Below, piece by piece: positions 4,715 through 12,512 of a stretch of 31,371 nucleotides of DNA. The position numbers and the translations under genes were made by a program. The DNA comes from a virus, in IMG/VR virus record IMGVR_UViG_3300034198_021866, positions 1 through 31,371 of that record. One strand, written 5' to 3'. Numbering within the stretch: the stretch's first letter is position 1; every line of letters begins with the position of its first letter. The notes under the pieces were generated by a model, which was not told the origin of the DNA, did no database searches, and saw only the letters and a list, made by a program, of their open reading frames with translations.

Positions 4715-4747
4715 AGAGGAGATATCTTTGATATCTCCTCTTTTTTT
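4715..4747 (+). terminator. strong intrinsic terminator after sheath gene
   Basis: A perfect 12-bp stem (4715-4726 with 4730-4741), TTT loop and a T run through 4747. It closes the sheath transcript and separates it from the homing endonuclease gene. Confidence 0.9.
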
Positions 4748-4751
4748 GTTA

Positions 4752-4759
4752 TATTTATA
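4752..4759 (+). promoter_or_regulatory. late-like promoter element before homing endonuclease 1
   Basis: TATTTATA just after the sheath terminator, 31 bases before ATG 4791. It gives the endonuclease gene its own candidate promoter. Confidence 0.4.
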
Positions 4760-4790
4760 TTTAGCTGAATTAGGCTTAATTATTAATAAT

Positions 4791-6410
4791 ATGGATTCAA
4801 AATCTAAAAAATCTAACAGAGAGGGAACTGGAAAAGTTGTCCCTTGTAAAAAATGTAAAGCTTTAATACCCTCTCATAAAAAATTCTGTAGTAGAGAATG
4901 CTATTCTAATTATAATAGAGTTATCATAATATGTCAGACTTGTGGACTTGAAAAATCTCTTCCTAAAAATAAAAAAGATACTAAATATTGTAGTATAAAA
5001 TGTTCTAATCAAGGTATTGATAGGAAGCAAAGTTATGTAAAAGCTAAAAATACTTTAGAAAGTAAACATGGGGTAGATAATCCCTTTTTAATTAAAGGGT
5101 ATGAAAATTTAAATATAAAAAGAAATGGAGATAAAATATCTCAATCTTTAAAAAATAAATCCGATGAAGAAAAAGTAGAAAGGAAAAATAAAATTTCTAA
5201 TACTTTAAAAAATAAATCCGATGAAGAAAAAATAAAAATCAAAGAAAAAAGAAAAAATACTAATATTTTATTATATAACGTTGAATCTTACCTTAGTAAG
5301 GATAGTCCTTTTAGAGAAGAAATTAAAATAAAATTAAGAAATTCTCAAACTTTAAAATATAAAAATTGGTTACAAGAAAATAATTTAGAACTGTTAGATG
5401 AATATAAAGGAGTTAAAGATTTAGAAGGAAATATAATTTATTATAAGTTTAAATATATACCTACTGGAGAGATTTTCGAAGATCATTTAGCTTGCGGAAG
5501 ACTCCCAGTATATAAAGATCCTAAATTAACAATAGGTATATCTAAAGCTGAATCTGAAATTTTAGAGTTTATAAAAAATAACTATAAAGATGAAATCATA
5601 TCTAATAGTAGAAAACTTTTAAAAGGATTAGAAATAGATATATATTTACCTAATTTAAAATTAGCTATAGAATTTAATGGATTAAGATGGCATTCCGAAT
5701 CTATGGGTAAATTCCGTAACTACCATTTATATAAAACTCAGAAATGTGAAGAGATAGGGATCCAACTTATTCATATATTTGAAGATGAGTGGGTTTATAA
5801 AAAAGATATAGTAAAATCTCGAATTTTAAATTTAATAAAATCTACTCCTAACAAAATATATGCTAGAAAATGTGTAATAAAATTTATTAATTCTACTGAA
5901 AAGAATTTATTTCTTAATAAAAATCATATACAAGGAGAAGATAAATCCTCTATTAGAATAGGATTAATATATAATAATGAATTAGTATCTATTATGACTT
6001 TAGGAGCTTTACGAAAAGTAACTGGAAATAAATCTAAAGAAAATTCATATGAACTTATTAGATTTTGTAATAAATTAAATACTAATGTTATAGGAGGTTT
6101 TAGTAAATTATTTAAACATTTTATAAAAAATTATAACCCTGAATCTATAATAAGTTACGCCGATAGAAGATGGAGTATAGGTAATTTATATGAAAAAAAT
6201 AATTTTAAATTTATTCATAATAGTCAACCTAATTATTGGTATCTAAAACATTATAATTATAGAGAACATAGATATAAATATAATAAACAATCTCTATCTA
6301 CAATCCTACCTAAATATAATCCTAAATTATCAGAATGGGAAAATATGAAAGTTAATAAATATGATAGAATATGGGATTGTGGAAGTAAAAAATATATTTA
6401 CCAACCCTAA
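4791..6410 (+). CDS. free-standing homing endonuclease (Vsr/EDxHD-type nuclease)
   Basis: 539 residues from ATG 4791. A longer frame starting with TTG at 4728 would begin inside the terminator and is rejected. Two zinc-binding knuckles come first (C19/C22/C33/C37 and C48/C51/C67/C71), then a Lys-rich region with a repeated LKNKSDEEK (57-base DNA repeat near 5150-5230). A Vsr-like nuclease core at about residues 278-345 shows LEIDIYLPNLKLAIEFNG (E281, D283, E294), WHSE (H301) and IHIFEDEW. The fold is that of I-Bth0305I-type phage homing nucleases. The C-terminal part (about 365-500) looks like a GNAT-fold domain (SIRIGLIYNN, LIRFCN, SYADRRWSIGNLYEKNNFKF). It would cut a related phage genome lacking this insert and spread by repair. 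Its nuclease and C-terminal domains are close relatives of the convergent gene at 6418-7890. Confidence 0.8.
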   Translation: MDSKSKKSNREGTGKVVPCKKCKALIPSHKKFCSRECYSNYNRVIIICQTCGLEKSLPKNKKDTKYCSIKCSNQGIDRKQSYVKAKNTLESKHGVDNPFLIKGYENLNIKRNGDKISQSLKNKSDEEKVERKNKISNTLKNKSDEEKIKIKEKRKNTNILLYNVESYLSKDSPFREEIKIKLRNSQTLKYKNWLQENNLELLDEYKGVKDLEGNIIYYKFKYIPTGEIFEDHLACGRLPVYKDPKLTIGISKAESEILEFIKNNYKDEIISNSRKLLKGLEIDIYLPNLKLAIEFNGLRWHSESMGKFRNYHLYKTQKCEEIGIQLIHIFEDEWVYKKDIVKSRILNLIKSTPNKIYARKCVIKFINSTEKNLFLNKNHIQGEDKSSIRIGLIYNNELVSIMTLGALRKVTGNKSKENSYELIRFCNKLNTNVIGGFSKLFKHFIKNYNPESIISYADRRWSIGNLYEKNNFKFIHNSQPNYWYLKHYNYREHRYKYNKQSLSTILPKYNPKLSEWENMKVNKYDRIWDCGSKKYIYQP

Positions 6411-6417
6411 TTAAATA

Positions 6418-7890
6418 TTATTTCTTTATCCATTTTGAATTACCTGAATCCCAAACTCTTTTCCACCCATTATTAATCATATTTTCATATTCAGTCTGAT
6501 TAGGATCAAATTTATCTAATAATTTATGAAGTTTATGTTTCTGACAAGACATTCTATTTAATATTTTATTATTTTTCCAATATATATAAGAAGGATTTGT
6601 ATTTTTTATAAATTCAAACCCTAAAGACTTATATAAATTACCTTTAAAAAATCTTCGATCCGAAAATGATATTATAGGTAAATTTTCTTTATTATAATTA
6701 TTTTCAAAATATTTAAATAATTTTGAAGCAGCACCTATAATATTAGTATTTAATTTATTACAAAATCTAACTAGTTCAAATTCATTTGAGTTTTTCTTAA
6801 ATCGGTTTTTAGAAAAAGTCATTAAAGAATATAATTCATCTTGATAAAATAATCCTAAATTTATTGAAGAATGAGTATAACCTTGGATATGGTTAATATC
6901 TAAGAAATTTCTTATTAAACTTACATCTTTTATTTCTTTAATAATACATTTTCTAGCGTATATTTTATTTTGAATTTTTCCTAACCTATTAAGTAATATA
7001 GATTTTAATATAGATTTTTTAAACAACCATTCATAATCTAAAATATGAATTAATTGTAATCCAATTTCTTCACATTTCTGAGTTTTATATAAATGGTAAT
7101 CTCTATATTTACCCATAGATTCAGAATGCCAATATACACCATTAACTTCTATAGCTAGATTATAAGAAGGAATATAAAAATCCAATTCTAATCTACTAGG
7201 TAATATATCTCTTCTATTAAGGGCTATATCATCCTCTATAACTTCACTTAGAAAACTTAAAATCTCATCCTCTATAAGAGAATAACCTTTATAATTAGAA
7301 CATTTACATGTAGGTAAATAACCATTAGATAAAAAAACTTCTGTAACTTCAGAACATTTATTACATTTAAATTTAAATTTATTATTAAATTCATGTTTAA
7401 GTTTAGTATTTTCTAAATAGTTTTTATCAAATAAAGGCTCCATTCCTGATATCTCATAATAATTTAATAATTTTTCCCATTTAGTATTTATGAAAGTATT
7501 TCGAGGGAGTTCTCTACCTTTTAAAGTATTAGAAATTTTATTTTTCACCTCATCATTTTGAGAGGCTATTTCAAATCCATATTTATTTATGATAGATTGT
7601 TTTGCTTTATCTTTAAACTCTTTAATTTTAAAAGGATTATCTTCCCCATATTTAGATTTTAAATTTGATTTATATTTCTCTTGCACTTCTTTAGATTTAA
7701 ATGCAATTTCTTCTCCATATCTATCTAAACAGGTTTTCTTTCTTTTTTCCATCCACTGTTTATCTACTCCTTTAAATTTTTGAGCACACGCCCTAGAACA
7801 AAATTCTTTTTTAGAAGAAGGTAAAGTTGAAAATATATTATTACAAAATTTACAATTTTTATGAGTTTGTTCTCCCTGGGGTCGTGGCAT
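6418..7890 (-). CDS. second homing endonuclease, opposite strand (Vsr/EDxHD-type)
   Basis: 490 residues from the ATG at 7890. The frame is open further upstream but the MPRPQGEQ start fits relatives and leaves room for the divergent tube promoter. Domains in order: an N-terminal zinc knuckle (CKFC at residues 13-16, then FCSRAC); repeats of a KYGxxNPFK type (DRYGEE, SKYGEDNPFK, NKYGFE), typical DNA-binding modules of phage homing enzymes; a second CxxC...CxC knuckle before the nuclease; a Vsr-like core (RLELDFYIPSYNLAIEVNG, WHSESMG, LIHILDYEW); and a GNAT-like C-terminal domain (SINLGLFYQDE, LVRFCNK, SFSDRRFFKGNLYKSLGFEF). The nuclease block is strikingly similar to that of the gene at 4791-6410, but here the second zinc knuckle is intact. 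It converges on that gene with only seven bases between stop codons. Confidence 0.8.
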   Translation of the reverse strand: MPRPQGEQTHKNCKFCNNIFSTLPSSKKEFCSRACAQKFKGVDKQWMEKRKKTCLDRYGEEIAFKSKEVQEKYKSNLKSKYGEDNPFKIKEFKDKAKQSIINKYGFEIASQNDEVKNKISNTLKGRELPRNTFINTKWEKLLNYYEISGMEPLFDKNYLENTKLKHEFNNKFKFKCNKCSEVTEVFLSNGYLPTCKCSNYKGYSLIEDEILSFLSEVIEDDIALNRRDILPSRLELDFYIPSYNLAIEVNGVYWHSESMGKYRDYHLYKTQKCEEIGLQLIHILDYEWLFKKSILKSILLNRLGKIQNKIYARKCIIKEIKDVSLIRNFLDINHIQGYTHSSINLGLFYQDELYSLMTFSKNRFKKNSNEFELVRFCNKLNTNIIGAASKLFKYFENNYNKENLPIISFSDRRFFKGNLYKSLGFEFIKNTNPSYIYWKNNKILNRMSCQKHKLHKLLDKFDPNQTEYENMINNGWKRVWDSGNSKWIKK

Positions 7891-7969
7891 AATAAATAAT
7901 TTTAAGTTCAAATAATGGTACGTTAATAAATATATAAAAGATTTTTTAAAAATCCAAAATATTAATATG

Positions 7970-7977
7970 TATAAATA
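7970..7977 (+). promoter_or_regulatory. T4-late-like promoter of tail tube gene
   Basis: Exact TATAAATA, 5 bases before ATG 7983, in the 92-base region between the divergent endonuclease start (7890) and the tube gene. The predicted transcript would have almost no leader. Confidence 0.6.
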
Positions 7978-7982
7978 AAAAT

Positions 7983-8471
7983 ATGGCAGTACTAGATCCA
8001 AATCAAATATTCTTTACGGCTTTCGAGCCCAAACAATCTAATCGATTCATAATGTATATCGATGGTATCCCAGCTTATGAAATTAAAGGAGTTGGAGCTG
8101 TTACTTTAACTCAAGGTACTGTAGCTCTTAACCACATTAACGTTCAACGTTTTGTTAAAGGTAAAACTACTTGGGGTACTATTCAATTTACATTATTTGA
8201 CCCTATCACTCCATCAGGTGCTCAAGCAGTAATGGAATGGGTTCGTTTACATCACGAATCTGTAACAGGTAGAAATGGATATTCAGATTTCTACAAAAAA
8301 GATTTAACATTTAATGTTTTAGGCCCTGTAGGAGATATTGTATCTGAATGGATAATTAAAGGAGCTTTAATTACAGAAGCTAATTTTGGAGATTATGGTT
8401 GGGATGATGATGGTACAGCGGTTAATATCACATTGACTGTCCAACCTGATTATTGCGTGCTCAATTTCTGA
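7983..8471 (+). CDS. gp19: tail tube protein, T4 gp19-like
   Basis: 162 residues, essentially the length of T4 gp19 (163). It polymerises into the inner tail tube through which DNA passes. Recognisable features are FFTAFEPKQSNRFIMYIDGIPAYEIKGVG near the start, a central HHESVTGRNGYSDFYKKDL, and a C-terminal GDYGWDDDGTAVNITLTVQPDY, the standard layout of T4-like tube monomers. Its codons use more C/G-ending forms (for example CGT, CAC, AAC) than neighbouring genes, consistent with high expression. It has its own TATAAATA promoter and a strong terminator, so it looks monocistronic. Confidence 0.93.
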   Translation: MAVLDPNQIFFTAFEPKQSNRFIMYIDGIPAYEIKGVGAVTLTQGTVALNHINVQRFVKGKTTWGTIQFTLFDPITPSGAQAVMEWVRLHHESVTGRNGYSDFYKKDLTFNVLGPVGDIVSEWIIKGALITEANFGDYGWDDDGTAVNITLTVQPDYCVLNF

Positions 8472-8649: not shown

Positions 8650-8660
8650 ACCGTAAAAGA

Positions 8661-8690
8661 GCTCGCAAATTATTGCGAGCTTCTTTTTTC
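8661..8690 (+). terminator. intrinsic terminator after mini-ORF
   Basis: A perfect 8-bp stem GCTCGCAA/TTGCGAGC (8661-8668, 8673-8680) with a four-base loop, followed by TTCTTTTTTC. Confidence 0.88.
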
Positions 8691-8734: not shown

Positions 8735-9469
8735 ATGGCAGATTTTAAATTTCCTACTGAAATAGTAGATTTACCTTCAAAAGGTTTAGTTTATCCCAAA
8801 GAAAATCCCTTATCGTCTGGTCAAGTTGAAATGAAATACATGACTGCTCGTGAAGAGGATATTTTAACTAATATTAATTATATACAAAAAGGTATAGTAA
8901 TTGAAAAATTATTAAAATCCTTAATAGTTTCTAATATTAATGTAGATGATTTAATTATTGGAGATAAAAATGCTTTATTAATTGCAGCTCGAATTTTAGG
9001 ATATGGTAGTGAATATTCATTTAATTATTATGGAGAAAAACATACTATAGATTTATCAAAACTAAAACATAAAATTATAGATGAATCTTTATTCACTCAA
9101 GGAAAAAATGAATTTTCATTTACTCTTCCTCATACTAAAACAGAAGTAACATTTCAATTACTAACTGAAAAATTAGAGAAAAATATTGACGCTGAGTTAA
9201 AAGGATTATCTAAAATAAATAAAGATAATATCCCTGAAATTTCTACTAAAATGAAATATATAATAACTTCAGTAGAAGGTAACAGAGATAAGAAAACTAT
9301 AAATGAGTTTGTAGATAATCATTTACTAGCTAGGGATGCTAAGGCTTTACGAGACTATATAGTATTAATTCAACCTGATGTAGATTTATCTACAGAAATT
9401 GAGATAAATGATGAAAAAATTGAAATTGAAGTACCTATAAGTTCTAACTTTTTTTTCCCTAACGAATAA
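8735..9469 (+). CDS. gp26: gp26-like baseplate protein / tail assembly chaperone, short form
   Basis: 244 residues. The start FPTEIVDLPSKGLVYP and the segment VEMKYMTAREEDILTN (about residues 30-46), with LLIAARILGYGSEY at about 83-97, are the pattern of the T4 baseplate (gp26-type) family. T4 gp26 (208 residues) is needed for hub assembly. The gene lies between the tube and tape-measure genes, the position of the lambda G/GT tail assembly chaperones in most tailed phages. The last codons run over eight consecutive T (9449-9456). The +1 frame is open from 9441 and continues for about 100 residues, so this ORF is probably the unshifted product and the shifted fusion (next entry) a minor longer product. 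The ATG follows TATTTATA at 8697-8704. Confidence 0.7.
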   Translation: MADFKFPTEIVDLPSKGLVYPKENPLSSGQVEMKYMTAREEDILTNINYIQKGIVIEKLLKSLIVSNINVDDLIIGDKNALLIAARILGYGSEYSFNYYGEKHTIDLSKLKHKIIDESLFTQGKNEFSFTLPHTKTEVTFQLLTEKLEKNIDAELKGLSKINKDNIPEISTKMKYIITSVEGNRDKKTINEFVDNHLLARDAKALRDYIVLIQPDVDLSTEIEINDEKIEIEVPISSNFFFPNE

Positions 9470-9752
9470 TGAAGCTGTAGAATATAGAGCTTATTTATTT
9501 GAACAATTACATGAAATAGTTTTTTATAGTAAAGGTGCTTACACCTGGGATTTTATGTATGATGCTCCTATATGGTTAAGAAAATACACTTTTTCAAAAT
9601 TAGTAAATCATTATGAATCTCAATCTAAAACTACCACTAATAATAATGTAGATAAATCTATACAAGCTATGAAATCCGCTGGTTTTACCGCGGAAAATTT
9701 AAATAAAAAACATAATAAACCTATTTATACATCAAAGGCCTCTAAAAATTGA
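9441..9752 (+). CDS. frameshift extension of the tail assembly chaperone
   Basis: This frame opens after TAA 9438-9440 and runs to TGA 9752. It has no ATG before 9555, yet the stretch before that ATG reads as conserved-looking protein: SLTNNEAVEYRAYLFEQLHE then IVFYSKGAYTWDFMYDAPIW. A shift of +1 (or -2) on the T8 run at 9449-9456, inside the 29-base overlap of both frames, joins the first 240 residues of the gp26-like protein to about 98 more residues, a fusion of about 338. This mirrors the G/GT arrangement of other tailed phages. The alternative, a separate 65-residue protein starting at ATG 9555, would discard about half of the recognisable domain. The last 25 residues are polar. The coding end overlaps a 9-bp hairpin. 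Confidence 0.65.
   Translation, partial: VLTFFSLTNNEAVEYRAYLFEQLHEIVFYSKGAYTWDFMYDAPIWLRKYTFSKLVNHYESQSKTTTNNNVDKSIQAMKSAGFTAENLNKKHNKPIYTSKASKN
9449..9456 (+). promoter_or_regulatory. candidate programmed frameshift (slippery) site
   Basis: Eight T in a row, read AAC TTT TTT TTC CCT in the upstream frame. A P-site tRNA on TTT can re-pair with TTT after a +1 or -2 move. Transcriptional slippage on the run is an alternative mechanism. It lies in the only interval (9441-9469) where both frames are open. Confidence 0.6.
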
Positions 9753-9759
9753 GGCCTTT
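9734..9759 (+). terminator. hairpin at end of chaperone ORF (weak terminator or processing site)
   Basis: 9-bp stem AAAGGCCTC/GAGGCCTTT (9734-9742 with 9751-9759) with an eight-base loop, overlapping the stop codon at 9750-9752. There is no long T run, so termination would be partial at best. Confidence 0.5.
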
Positions 9760-9782: not shown

Positions 9783-12512
9783 ATGGTTCAAGATCCTAAT
9801 AACATGCGTGAAAGGGCATTAGAAACTGCTACTATAGTTGAAGATGCTTTAATGAGTATAAGTCAAAATCTTAAAAAGACAGTTGAAACCTACTTTGAAG
9901 ATACTGATGGAGTTGTTAAAAATCTGGGGAAGAATCTAACTCGAGAAATAAATAGTTTAGGTAAAGTTGGAGATATTATAGGTAAATCTTATGAAAAAGC
10001 TTTAGATGGTTCATTTAAACAAGCTGATTTAGCTAAAATTATTTTACAACGTAATACTAAGATTTTTGAGATTGAAAGTAGAATAAATATTCTTAAAGCT
10101 TTAGGAAATAAAGGAGATAAAGAAGCTTTAGCAATTGTTAAGAAATTAGAAAAATCTAAACAAGAAATTAAAACTATAGATGAGGAAACTAATAAAGAAT
10201 TAGAAAACAGTCTAAGAATATCTAATAATATATCTAAATCTATGGGTGTAACAGGAGATATTCTTAAATCTTCTCAAAATATTTTAAATAAGTTAGGATT
10301 AAATAATTTAGAAGAAATAATTTCTGAGGCTAGTGATGCTTCTTTAGATATGACTAAAAATTTAACTAATAATGGAGAAAAAATGGCTTCATTAGGAGAT
10401 AAATTTAAAATATTTGGAGCAGGTGCTAAAACTTTATTTATGGGAATAGGTAAATCTTTAATAGATCCTGTATTCATATTTGGTACTTTAGTAGCTACTA
10501 CCAAAGGTTTAATATCACTTTCAGGAGAATTTTTAAAAGAACAATCCAAAATAGCAACAACTTTTAATACATCTGCTGAGTCCTCTAAAAAAATACAAGA
10601 AAATATTAGAAAATCAGCTGATATAAATTATTCTCCAGATCAATTAATTGAAGGATATGAAAGATATAATAAAGCTGTAGGTCTTAATTTAAGTTATAAT
10701 GAGGATAATGCTAAATTAATGGTTGATTTAGTAGATAACTTAGGAATGAGTGAAGAAGAAGCTGGAAGGTTAATTAAAACTTCTCTCATTTTAGGTAAAA
10801 GTTTTAAAACATTTGATAAAACTATAACTAGCTCTACTAATACTTTAAATAAACAAAATCAAACATCAATTAGTTTATCAGAAGTTAATGATAAAATAGC
10901 TAACTCTTCAGAAGCTACTAGATATAATATATTAGGGGGAGTTACAGGATTAGCTAGAGCAGCTCACACTGCAGCTCGTTATGGACGTGAAATGGATGAA
11001 ATTGTTCAATCTGCTGAATCCCTATTAGATTTTCAGGGTTCTTTAGAAAAACAAATGAAAGCAGAAATGTTTTTACAAAAATCTATAAATGTACAAAAAC
11101 TTCAATACGCTAGCCTTACAGGAAATGCTGAAGAAATAGCCAAAGAACAAGCTCGTATTATAAATGAAAACTGGGCCTCTACTAAAGGAAATGTTTTAGC
11201 TCAACAAGCCTTAGCTGAGTCTATTGGATTATCTAAAGAACAAGCTGCTGAAATATATAATATAAAATTAAAAGAAGCTGAGATTTTAAGAAAACAAGGT
11301 CCTCAAGCTTTAAAACAATATCAAGATACTTTAGAAGCTCAGAAAAATCAAGCACAAGAAGCTAAGAAATTTGATAATGCTTTAAGTAGTGCTATTAATT
11401 CTCTTAAAACAAGTTTATTACCTTTAGTAGAAACTATAACTCCATTGTTTATAAAGATGGCCGAGGCTATATCAGGTATAGCTAAAAGTTTATCAGGGGA
11501 TGTGGGTAAAACTATTATGGGAATTCTAGGTGCGGTCGCCGGTGGGGGTGCTTTATTTTATGGTGGATCTAAATTAGTTAAAGGATTCCAAGGATTAAAA
11601 CAAGCTTATTCGGGAGGAGTTTCAGAAGACACTCCTGGTACTAAAAGTAAAGGTGGTTTAGCTGGAGTATTAGAAAAAGTTACAGGAAAAGGTAATTTAG
11701 GAGAATCTGCTAATAATCCTATGTATGTTTATGTAACTAATATGGGAGGAGGTATAGAATCTTCTATAGATAGTTCAAGTAGTTCTCCAAGTAGTTCAAG
11801 TAGTTCTCCAAGGGGTGCTAAACCTAAAGGCTTTATGGGTAAAGTAGCAAATTTTGCTGGAAATATATCTAAAAAATTAAATCCAAAACAATTTTTAAAA
11901 GGAAATATAGGAAAAATGTTAGGTAAGTTTTTTAAGAGTTCTAAAGCTATGGTAGGAGGAATACTTAAAAGAATACCTGGAATAGGCCCCTTAATAGATT
12001 TAATATTAATGGGTAATGATATTGACAGTATAATCTCTCAGGGAGGATATGATTCAAAACCTCAAATGGAATCTGATATAGGTAAAACTATTATAGGCTC
12101 CGGTTTGGGTATGTTGGGAGGAGGATTAGCAGCATCTGTAATTTCAGCTCCTTCAGCTTTAGGTATTCCCACAGCTCTTATGGCTCCTCTAGCTTATACT
12201 GGAGGTGATATGTTAGGTAGATTAATTGGGGAAAGTATATCAGATTATATAGGGGGCCCTCAATTAGGTAAATTAGTAGTTGATAATTTTGCTTCTGAAG
12301 GTGAAGCTAAAAAAATGGCTACTGGGGGTATTGTAACAAAAGCTACTAATGCTATAGTAGGAGAAGCTGGAAGTGAAGCTGTTATACCTTTAAATGAATT
12401 TTATAGAAAAATTGATGAACTTATAGCGGTTGTAAAACAAGGTGGAAATATTTACTTAGATGGTAAAAAAGTAGGTACAGCTATGGCTATGGGAAGTTAT
12501 AGGATTCAATAA
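9783..12512 (+). CDS. gp29: tail tape-measure protein, T4 gp29-like position
   Basis: 909 residues, against 590 in T4 gp29. It sets tail length during assembly and is ejected ahead of the DNA. Evidence: its size, its position after the chaperone and before hub genes, long helical segments (about residues 1-170 and 380-550), and hydrophobic Gly/Ala-rich stretches at about 212-240, 575-600 and 760-810 that could insert in the host membrane. The C-terminal block at about 845-890 (MATGGIVTKATNAIVGEAGS, EAVIPLNEFYRKIDE) is a very common end of tape-measure proteins. A Ser/Pro-rich low-complexity stretch at about 659-677 is encoded by two copies of a 21-base repeat. Own promoter, ATG start, no Shine-Dalgarno. 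Tail length scales with this protein, so a longer tail than T4 is expected. Confidence 0.85.
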   Translation: MVQDPNNMRERALETATIVEDALMSISQNLKKTVETYFEDTDGVVKNLGKNLTREINSLGKVGDIIGKSYEKALDGSFKQADLAKIILQRNTKIFEIESRINILKALGNKGDKEALAIVKKLEKSKQEIKTIDEETNKELENSLRISNNISKSMGVTGDILKSSQNILNKLGLNNLEEIISEASDASLDMTKNLTNNGEKMASLGDKFKIFGAGAKTLFMGIGKSLIDPVFIFGTLVATTKGLISLSGEFLKEQSKIATTFNTSAESSKKIQENIRKSADINYSPDQLIEGYERYNKAVGLNLSYNEDNAKLMVDLVDNLGMSEEEAGRLIKTSLILGKSFKTFDKTITSSTNTLNKQNQTSISLSEVNDKIANSSEATRYNILGGVTGLARAAHTAARYGREMDEIVQSAESLLDFQGSLEKQMKAEMFLQKSINVQKLQYASLTGNAEEIAKEQARIINENWASTKGNVLAQQALAESIGLSKEQAAEIYNIKLKEAEILRKQGPQALKQYQDTLEAQKNQAQEAKKFDNALSSAINSLKTSLLPLVETITPLFIKMAEAISGIAKSLSGDVGKTIMGILGAVAGGGALFYGGSKLVKGFQGLKQAYSGGVSEDTPGTKSKGGLAGVLEKVTGKGNLGESANNPMYVYVTNMGGGIESSIDSSSSSPSSSSSSPRGAKPKGFMGKVANFAGNISKKLNPKQFLKGNIGKMLGKFFKSSKAMVGGILKRIPGIGPLIDLILMGNDIDSIISQGGYDSKPQMESDIGKTIIGSGLGMLGGGLAASVISAPSALGIPTALMAPLAYTGGDMLGRLIGESISDYIGGPQLGKLVVDNFASEGEAKKMATGGIVTKATNAIVGEAGSEAVIPLNEFYRKIDELIAVVKQGGNIYLDGKKVGTAMAMGSYRIQ
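11772..11813 (+). repeat. two-copy 21-bp tandem repeat in tape-measure gene
   Basis: Two units of 21 bases (11772-11792 and 11793-11813) differing at the last base, encoding SSSSSPS-type repeats. The repeat is in frame, so copy-number change would lengthen or shorten only the disordered linker. Confidence 0.8.

Follow-up and report, generated by a model that had tools for sequence, protein, structure and literature searches.

How is a reading frame translated that overlaps the end of a gene, carries a conserved domain, and offers no start codon until that domain is well under way? The question is raised by a tail gene in a stretch of viral DNA of 31,371 nt (IMG/VR record IMGVR_UViG_3300034198_021866, positions 1 to 31,371; hereafter the window), for which a preliminary description had proposed a programmed +1 or −2 frameshift yielding a long tail assembly chaperone. 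The comparisons reported here make it likely that this T4-like chaperone gene gives a short product (TAC-N) and, by a +1 slip on a UUU codon of a conserved motif, a long one (TAC-NC). That there is a programmed frameshift, conserved and functional, is almost certain on comparative grounds.

The features of the locus are collected in Table 1. The positions given in the preliminary description, for the end of the 0 frame, the TAA of the +1 frame, the overlap, the T run and the first ATG, are all right. The +1 frame is open from 9441 to 9752, with no ATG, GTG or TTG ahead of the ATG at 9555; both frames are jointly open over 29 nt (9441–9469), within which a run of eight T (9449–9456) is followed by CCC. 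The conceptual fusion TAC-NC, with the +1 step placed on the second TTT, has 338 residues. From the alignments, the 65-aa ORF is most likely just a truncated 3′ part of the C-domain; its ATG falls within the conserved domain (TWDFMYDAPIW), and the same is true of truncated annotations in Flavobacterium phage immuto and in SP-15. The locus as a whole (8735–9752) lies between tube and tape-measure genes, the position expected for a tail assembly chaperone and the one first assigned to it; the family matches of its neighbors bear this out, and the same gene order is found in immuto, SP-15 and LIS04.

Table 1. Features of the chaperone locus and its neighbors (positions in the window)
Feature	Positions	Strand	Evidence
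Tail tube gene (context)	7983..8471	+	phrog_4542, E 1.4e-22
TAC-N, short tail assembly chaperone, T4 gp26/gp51 family, 244 aa	8735..9469	+	phrog_150, AF2, Foldseek
TAA of the +1 frame; bounds the shift upstream	9438..9440	+	
Putative frameshift motif TTT TTT TTC CCT (0 frame F F F P)	9449..9460	+	F-[FL]-[WYF]-P in 105/105 relatives
C-terminal extension in the +1 frame (98 residues if the step falls on the second TTT)	9456..9752	+	conservation, fold
Candidate stimulatory hairpin in the RNA, across the 0-frame stop, 2 nt beyond CCT	9463..9501	+	MFE, z
TAA closing the 0 frame; bounds the shift downstream	9467..9469	+	
65-aa ATG ORF, the one a gene caller would report	9555..9752	+	
Tape-measure protein gene (context)	9783..12512	+	phrog_1533, E 1.2e-6

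The surroundings contain elements of other kinds. Between the tube and chaperone genes (8659–8689) lies a near-perfect terminator-like hairpin with a T-rich tail, which may set the level of the chaperone below that of the tube protein; the SP-15 record has a terminator annotated at the equivalent position. A 9-bp perfect hairpin (AAAGGCCTC/GAGGCCTTT, 9734–9759), also terminator-like, overlaps the end of the C-domain ORF directly ahead of the tape-measure gene. Between the sheath and tube genes sit two convergent ORFs that resemble homing endonucleases and share one family (phrog_3339, E about 1e-114), at 4728–6410 (+) and 6418–8001 (−), the second overlapping the start of the tube gene by 19 nt.

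The upstream protein is recognized at a distance. TAC-N of the window matches phrog_150 (E 6.7e-8, profile 12–233 of 282), which also matches T4 gp26 (14–235/282) and T4 gp51 (13–280/282), as well as proteins of immuto (8e-9), Mel-JY01 (9e-12) and GXN1 (2e-25). Compared as a single sequence with T4 gp26 and gp51, the window fusion gives nothing significant; membership in the gp26/gp51 family therefore rests on profiles, and the likeness of TAC-N to the T4 proteins is detectable by profile and fold only. Alignment of the fusion with the gp26 family was a check that the preliminary description had proposed; at the level of profiles, and with distant members added, fusion and gp51 stay in register across the junction and on through the C-domain (pair E 1e-4). 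The C-domain alone, set against the gp51 C-terminus with hhalign, does not rise above shuffled columns; of 94 C-domains, 7 have a match to phrog_634 (the family of gp51, named ‘baseplate hub assembly catalyst’), at best with E 0.0016.

For structure prediction, the fusion was folded with N-only alignment rows, and the C-domain separately. AF2 gives the N-domain a pLDDT >90 over most of residues 1–240, and Foldseek matches the predicted fold to T4-like hub/chaperone proteins in BFVD, down to E 1e-19; the C-domain is predicted to be helical (mean pLDDT 84). Solved structures searched by sequence gave no match. By structure, residues 1–92 of the model find YqbN (3klu, Z 5.7), which we take to be a phage tail assembly chaperone, and HK97 chaperone gp13 (2ob9, Z 4.5) at the top, Z values that are weak when taken alone. 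Assignment as a tail assembly chaperone, as first put forward, is supported by phrog_150, synteny and fold. Because of the phrog_150 membership, the alignment in register with gp51, the phrog_634 matches and the fold, the locus is filed as the TAC-N/TAC-NC pair of a T4-like myovirus; the chaperone role itself would follow from the family.

Relatives were gathered from IMG/VR, with the 244-aa protein (80 loci, 50–70% identity) and with the family alignment (80 further, more distant loci); immuto, Microcystis phage Mel-JY01 and the huge-phage genome LR756508 were added. The non-redundant set, environmental and isolate, comprises 105 lineages at <90% aa identity, including a few contigs whose record ends early in the C-domain. 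The C-domain stands in the +1 frame, at the same motif, in 104 of these lineages as it does in the window, and the pattern is therefore far beyond chance; an in-frame fusion of the two domains was seen in none of the 105. The preliminary description had said that the geometry is not −1, which this upholds, and had considered the shift notable for a phage of this kind: the shift is there, as a property of the family rather than a peculiarity of one phage. Lineage L151 alone has its C-domain in the −1 frame. Its junction (TTCTTTTGGCCCTCCCGG TAA), the sole one of that kind in the clade, may reflect either a genuine change of direction or an error of one base in the sequence.

Selection acts on the +1 product, and the C-domain evolves as a protein. 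Past the 0-frame stop, its dN/dS is 0.39 between the window and the nearest relative (L005); the C-domain median over 2038 pairs is 0.61, a rough figure affected by saturation at larger distances. The conserved core reads FFGL-YR-LH-QIF-...-VYNMP-LR-FY, with Y/P/R invariant (alignment A3). Viral contigs searched with the +1 peptide alone gave no match; a search for relatives of RAS14 found none, and one for relatives of GXN1 found a single partial match.

The place of the shift can be narrowed considerably. F-[FL]-[WYF]-P is found at the same position in all 105 relatives, most often written TTT TTT TGG CCT (67 lineages), otherwise TTT TTT TAC CCT (12), TTT TTT TTC CCT as in the window (5), TTT CTT TGG CCT (6, the site of immuto being of this type) or TTC TTT TTT CCC (6); the lineages outside these types have minor variants. 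In several lineages, a +1-frame stop ends 3 nt upstream of the motif and the +1 frame opens there; at the other side, L081 reads TTT CCC TAG, with a 0-frame stop directly after CCC. These two limits bound the motif, and the shift is therefore confined to it. Of 203 Phe codons at the motif, 194 are TTT; in the rest of these genes the figure is 700 of 882 (p 1.4e-9). Pro is written CCT or CCC in 105/105. The length of the T run varies from 3 to 9 among 110 motifs (the 105 plus L065, LIS04, GXN1, SP-15 and RM378). Judged by this comparison, the conserved element is TTT[T/C] inside F-F/L-W/Y/F-P, and the signal does not lie in the T8 run as such; this refines the preliminary description, which had noted the run in the middle of the overlap.

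One account of these observations supposes a +1 step, after which the P-site tRNA-Phe can re-pair (UUU to UUU or UUC) in all 110 motifs. A second supposes a programmed −2 shift on the T run, as in phage Mu (PMC5009743), which would lead to the same frame with one extra Phe. Re-pairing two bases back is possible for tRNA-Phe in 98 of the 110 motifs, that of the window included; it is impossible in the other 12 (L003 immuto, L033, L055, L065, L085, L087 GXN1, L103, L104, L107, L151, L165 and L176), which have a longest T run of 3–4 and keep the +1 option; L151 is the lineage in the −1 frame. RNA structure bears on the same choice. A hairpin starts within 10 nt of the Pro codon in 23 of the 105 relatives, against 4.2 expected from shuffles, and the folding z for +12..+36 averages −1.0, with upstream control windows close to zero; the hairpin of the window is a strong one (MFE −13.3 kcal/mol, z −4.05). 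Downstream hairpins usually favor backward shifts, and −2 therefore stays the strongest competitor where the run is long (T6–T9). A search of Rfam gave no match, and a Shine-Dalgarno-like stimulator was tried and set aside as too unspecific to claim (site mean −3.0, background −1.3 kcal/mol). Because all 110 motifs allow +1, only 98 allow −2 and 12 have T runs of 3–4, slippage by +1 is the simplest mechanism that all could share; a −2 shift is unlikely, though it deserves to be kept in view. The two movements had been offered side by side at the outset: the frame they share was correct, and +1 is now the better supported.

The remaining accounts dispense with a slip on UUU. RNA polymerase might slip on the T run, T8 in the window and T7–T9 in most relatives, to give a mixed mRNA population; however, the runs of 3–4 in the 12 motifs just listed (immuto and GXN1 among them) are judged too short, and slippage of this kind would feed the third frame too, which is not conserved open, so its probability is very small. 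A second gene might begin at a codon of its own, ATG 9555 or a non-canonical one: the 65-aa ORF exists, truncated ORFs like it are annotated for immuto and SP-15 in databases, and 27 of 101 lineages have an upstream ATG in the +1 frame. Yet conservation of that frame begins at the FF motif, well ahead of 9555, and as far as 12 nt beyond the 0-frame stop there is no ATG in 74/101 lineages and none of ATG, GTG and TTG in 43/101; start codons, where present, are not at conserved places. The check on relatives whose second frame has a start of its own, which the preliminary description had named as a possible refutation, left the frameshift reading standing, and two separate genes are equally improbable. 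The ribosome might also slip +1 at the Pro codon, as Listeria phage PSA does on CCC_UGA (PMC5009743); the invariable CCT or CCC and the TTT CCC TAG of L081 would agree with this. But 96 of the 105 codons are CCT, where tRNA-Pro would land on CUN after a +1 step and pair poorly; CCN re-pairing is possible in only 11 of 110 motifs; and CCT is already accounted for by double coding, Pro in the 0 frame and Leu in the +1 frame. Such a site deserves little credence, if slightly more than the two preceding accounts. Finally, an error in the T8 run, a possibility raised at the start, is excluded because relatives show the same two frames with T7, T8 and T9: T8 recurs in L005 and L014, T9 occurs in L009 and L015, and in most others the run is T7 and the next base differs.

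Of the mechanisms considered, a forward step of peptidyl-tRNA-Phe by one base on UUU-Y is accordingly the sole one that fits all lineages. Comparison establishes both frames, their conserved overlap, the selection on the +1 product and the family membership of the N part; we infer that the step takes place in vivo, forward by one base rather than back by two, and with an efficiency that would leave the majority of ribosomes making the 244-aa, gp26-like TAC-N. In a minority, peptidyl-tRNA-Phe on UUU of UUU UUU UUC CCU would slip one base ahead and re-pair with UUU; these ribosomes would read on in the +1 frame and complete the 338-aa TAC-NC with its helical C-domain. If the two parts divide their work as in lambda G/GT, coating of the tape-measure protein would fall to the N part, and the C-domain would bring in tube subunits.

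Direction is not uniform in the wider family. In the distant isolates SP-15, LIS04, GXN1 and RM378, the C-domain follows in the +1 frame; in XacN1, RAS14, PA5oct, Atu_ph07 and LR756511, TAC-N ends in FF (TTT TTT) with a similar overlapping C-domain, as in the window, but in the −1 frame. In the tree, four −1 isolates (XacN1, RAS14, PA5oct and Atu_ph07) form one well-supported group, +1 is found in 24 of 25 rows of the large clade that holds the window, and the branches of the RM378 and T4 proteins are too long to place. Because of the frames of the isolates and the tree, +1 is taken as the rule in the large clade, and direction as having changed within the family. GXN1 (L087), LIS04 (L086) and SP-15 (L182), with +1 geometry at FF, are phages of Gram-positive hosts.

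There is thus a reasonable case, held with some reserve, for a large undescribed branch of T4-like phages with an ultraconserved +1 site UUU-Y (UUU_UUU_UGG_CCU and variants), in a family whose shift has changed direction, between +1 and −1, at one and the same Phe-Phe dicodon and has given way in T4 to a short gene and a long one. If true, this would be a natural experiment on what determines the direction of a shift. A conserved +1 site in >100 T4-like lineages would extend the tail-chaperone frameshift rule with the opposite sign, and would supply a compact bacterial +1 signal (about 12 nt) for mechanistic work. Annotations would be corrected as well: the C-domain is entered as a separate hypothetical protein, truncated in immuto (L003 6903–7013) and SP-15 (L182 2333–2452) and start-shifted in Mel-JY01 (L004 6741–6977), and is unannotated in LIS04 and GXN1.

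Among known systems, lambda-type tail chaperones shift −1 and that of Mu −2, the archaeal myovirus HSTV-2 very likely shifts +1, and T4 has been named as an exception to the rule (PMC5009743). Lambda G/GT resembles the window in having a short and a frameshifted long chaperone between tube and tape-measure genes; it differs in its −1 shift and its slippery sequence. T4 gp26 and gp51 are of the same phrog_150 family and likewise short and long, and gp26, like TAC-N of the window, ends in FF-x-x-x; in T4, on the accounts available, the two forms come from two separate genes with no frameshift, whereas the window has one gene and an overlapping +1 C-domain. A short gene and a long fused gene are reported for some T4-like phages (PMC10885494, relating Vladimirov 2022). 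Poly-T −1 sites have been described in T4-like and Vandenendeviridae chaperones (PMC12846349). The chaperones of Vandenendeviridae and Andersonviridae share with the window a single locus for TAC-N and TAC-NC upstream of the tape-measure gene and a poly-T site close to where the TAC-N gene ends; their published shift is −1, at GTTTTT (PMC12846349), whereas the window has its C-domain at +1. For T4-like chaperones, the literature consulted contained no earlier account of a +1 shift; in it, Vladimirov, Gautam and Davidson (2022) is represented by the papers that cite it. Since the published T4-like cases are −1 shifts or short-plus-long gene pairs, the +1 shift seen in these alignments would be a widespread form of the known chaperone frameshift, and therefore new in direction. 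The nearest likeness of the site itself is to influenza A PA-X, where +1 slippage at UCC_UUU_CGU was established by mass spectrometry (PMC3498833): the ribosome is eukaryotic and the gene unrelated, but the step is likewise +1 on UUU followed by C, and the GXN1 site, TTC TTT CGT (UUC_UUU_CGU), nearly equals it. If the present reading is true, the phage motif would be a bacterial counterpart of the PA-X type of UUU_C +1 site.
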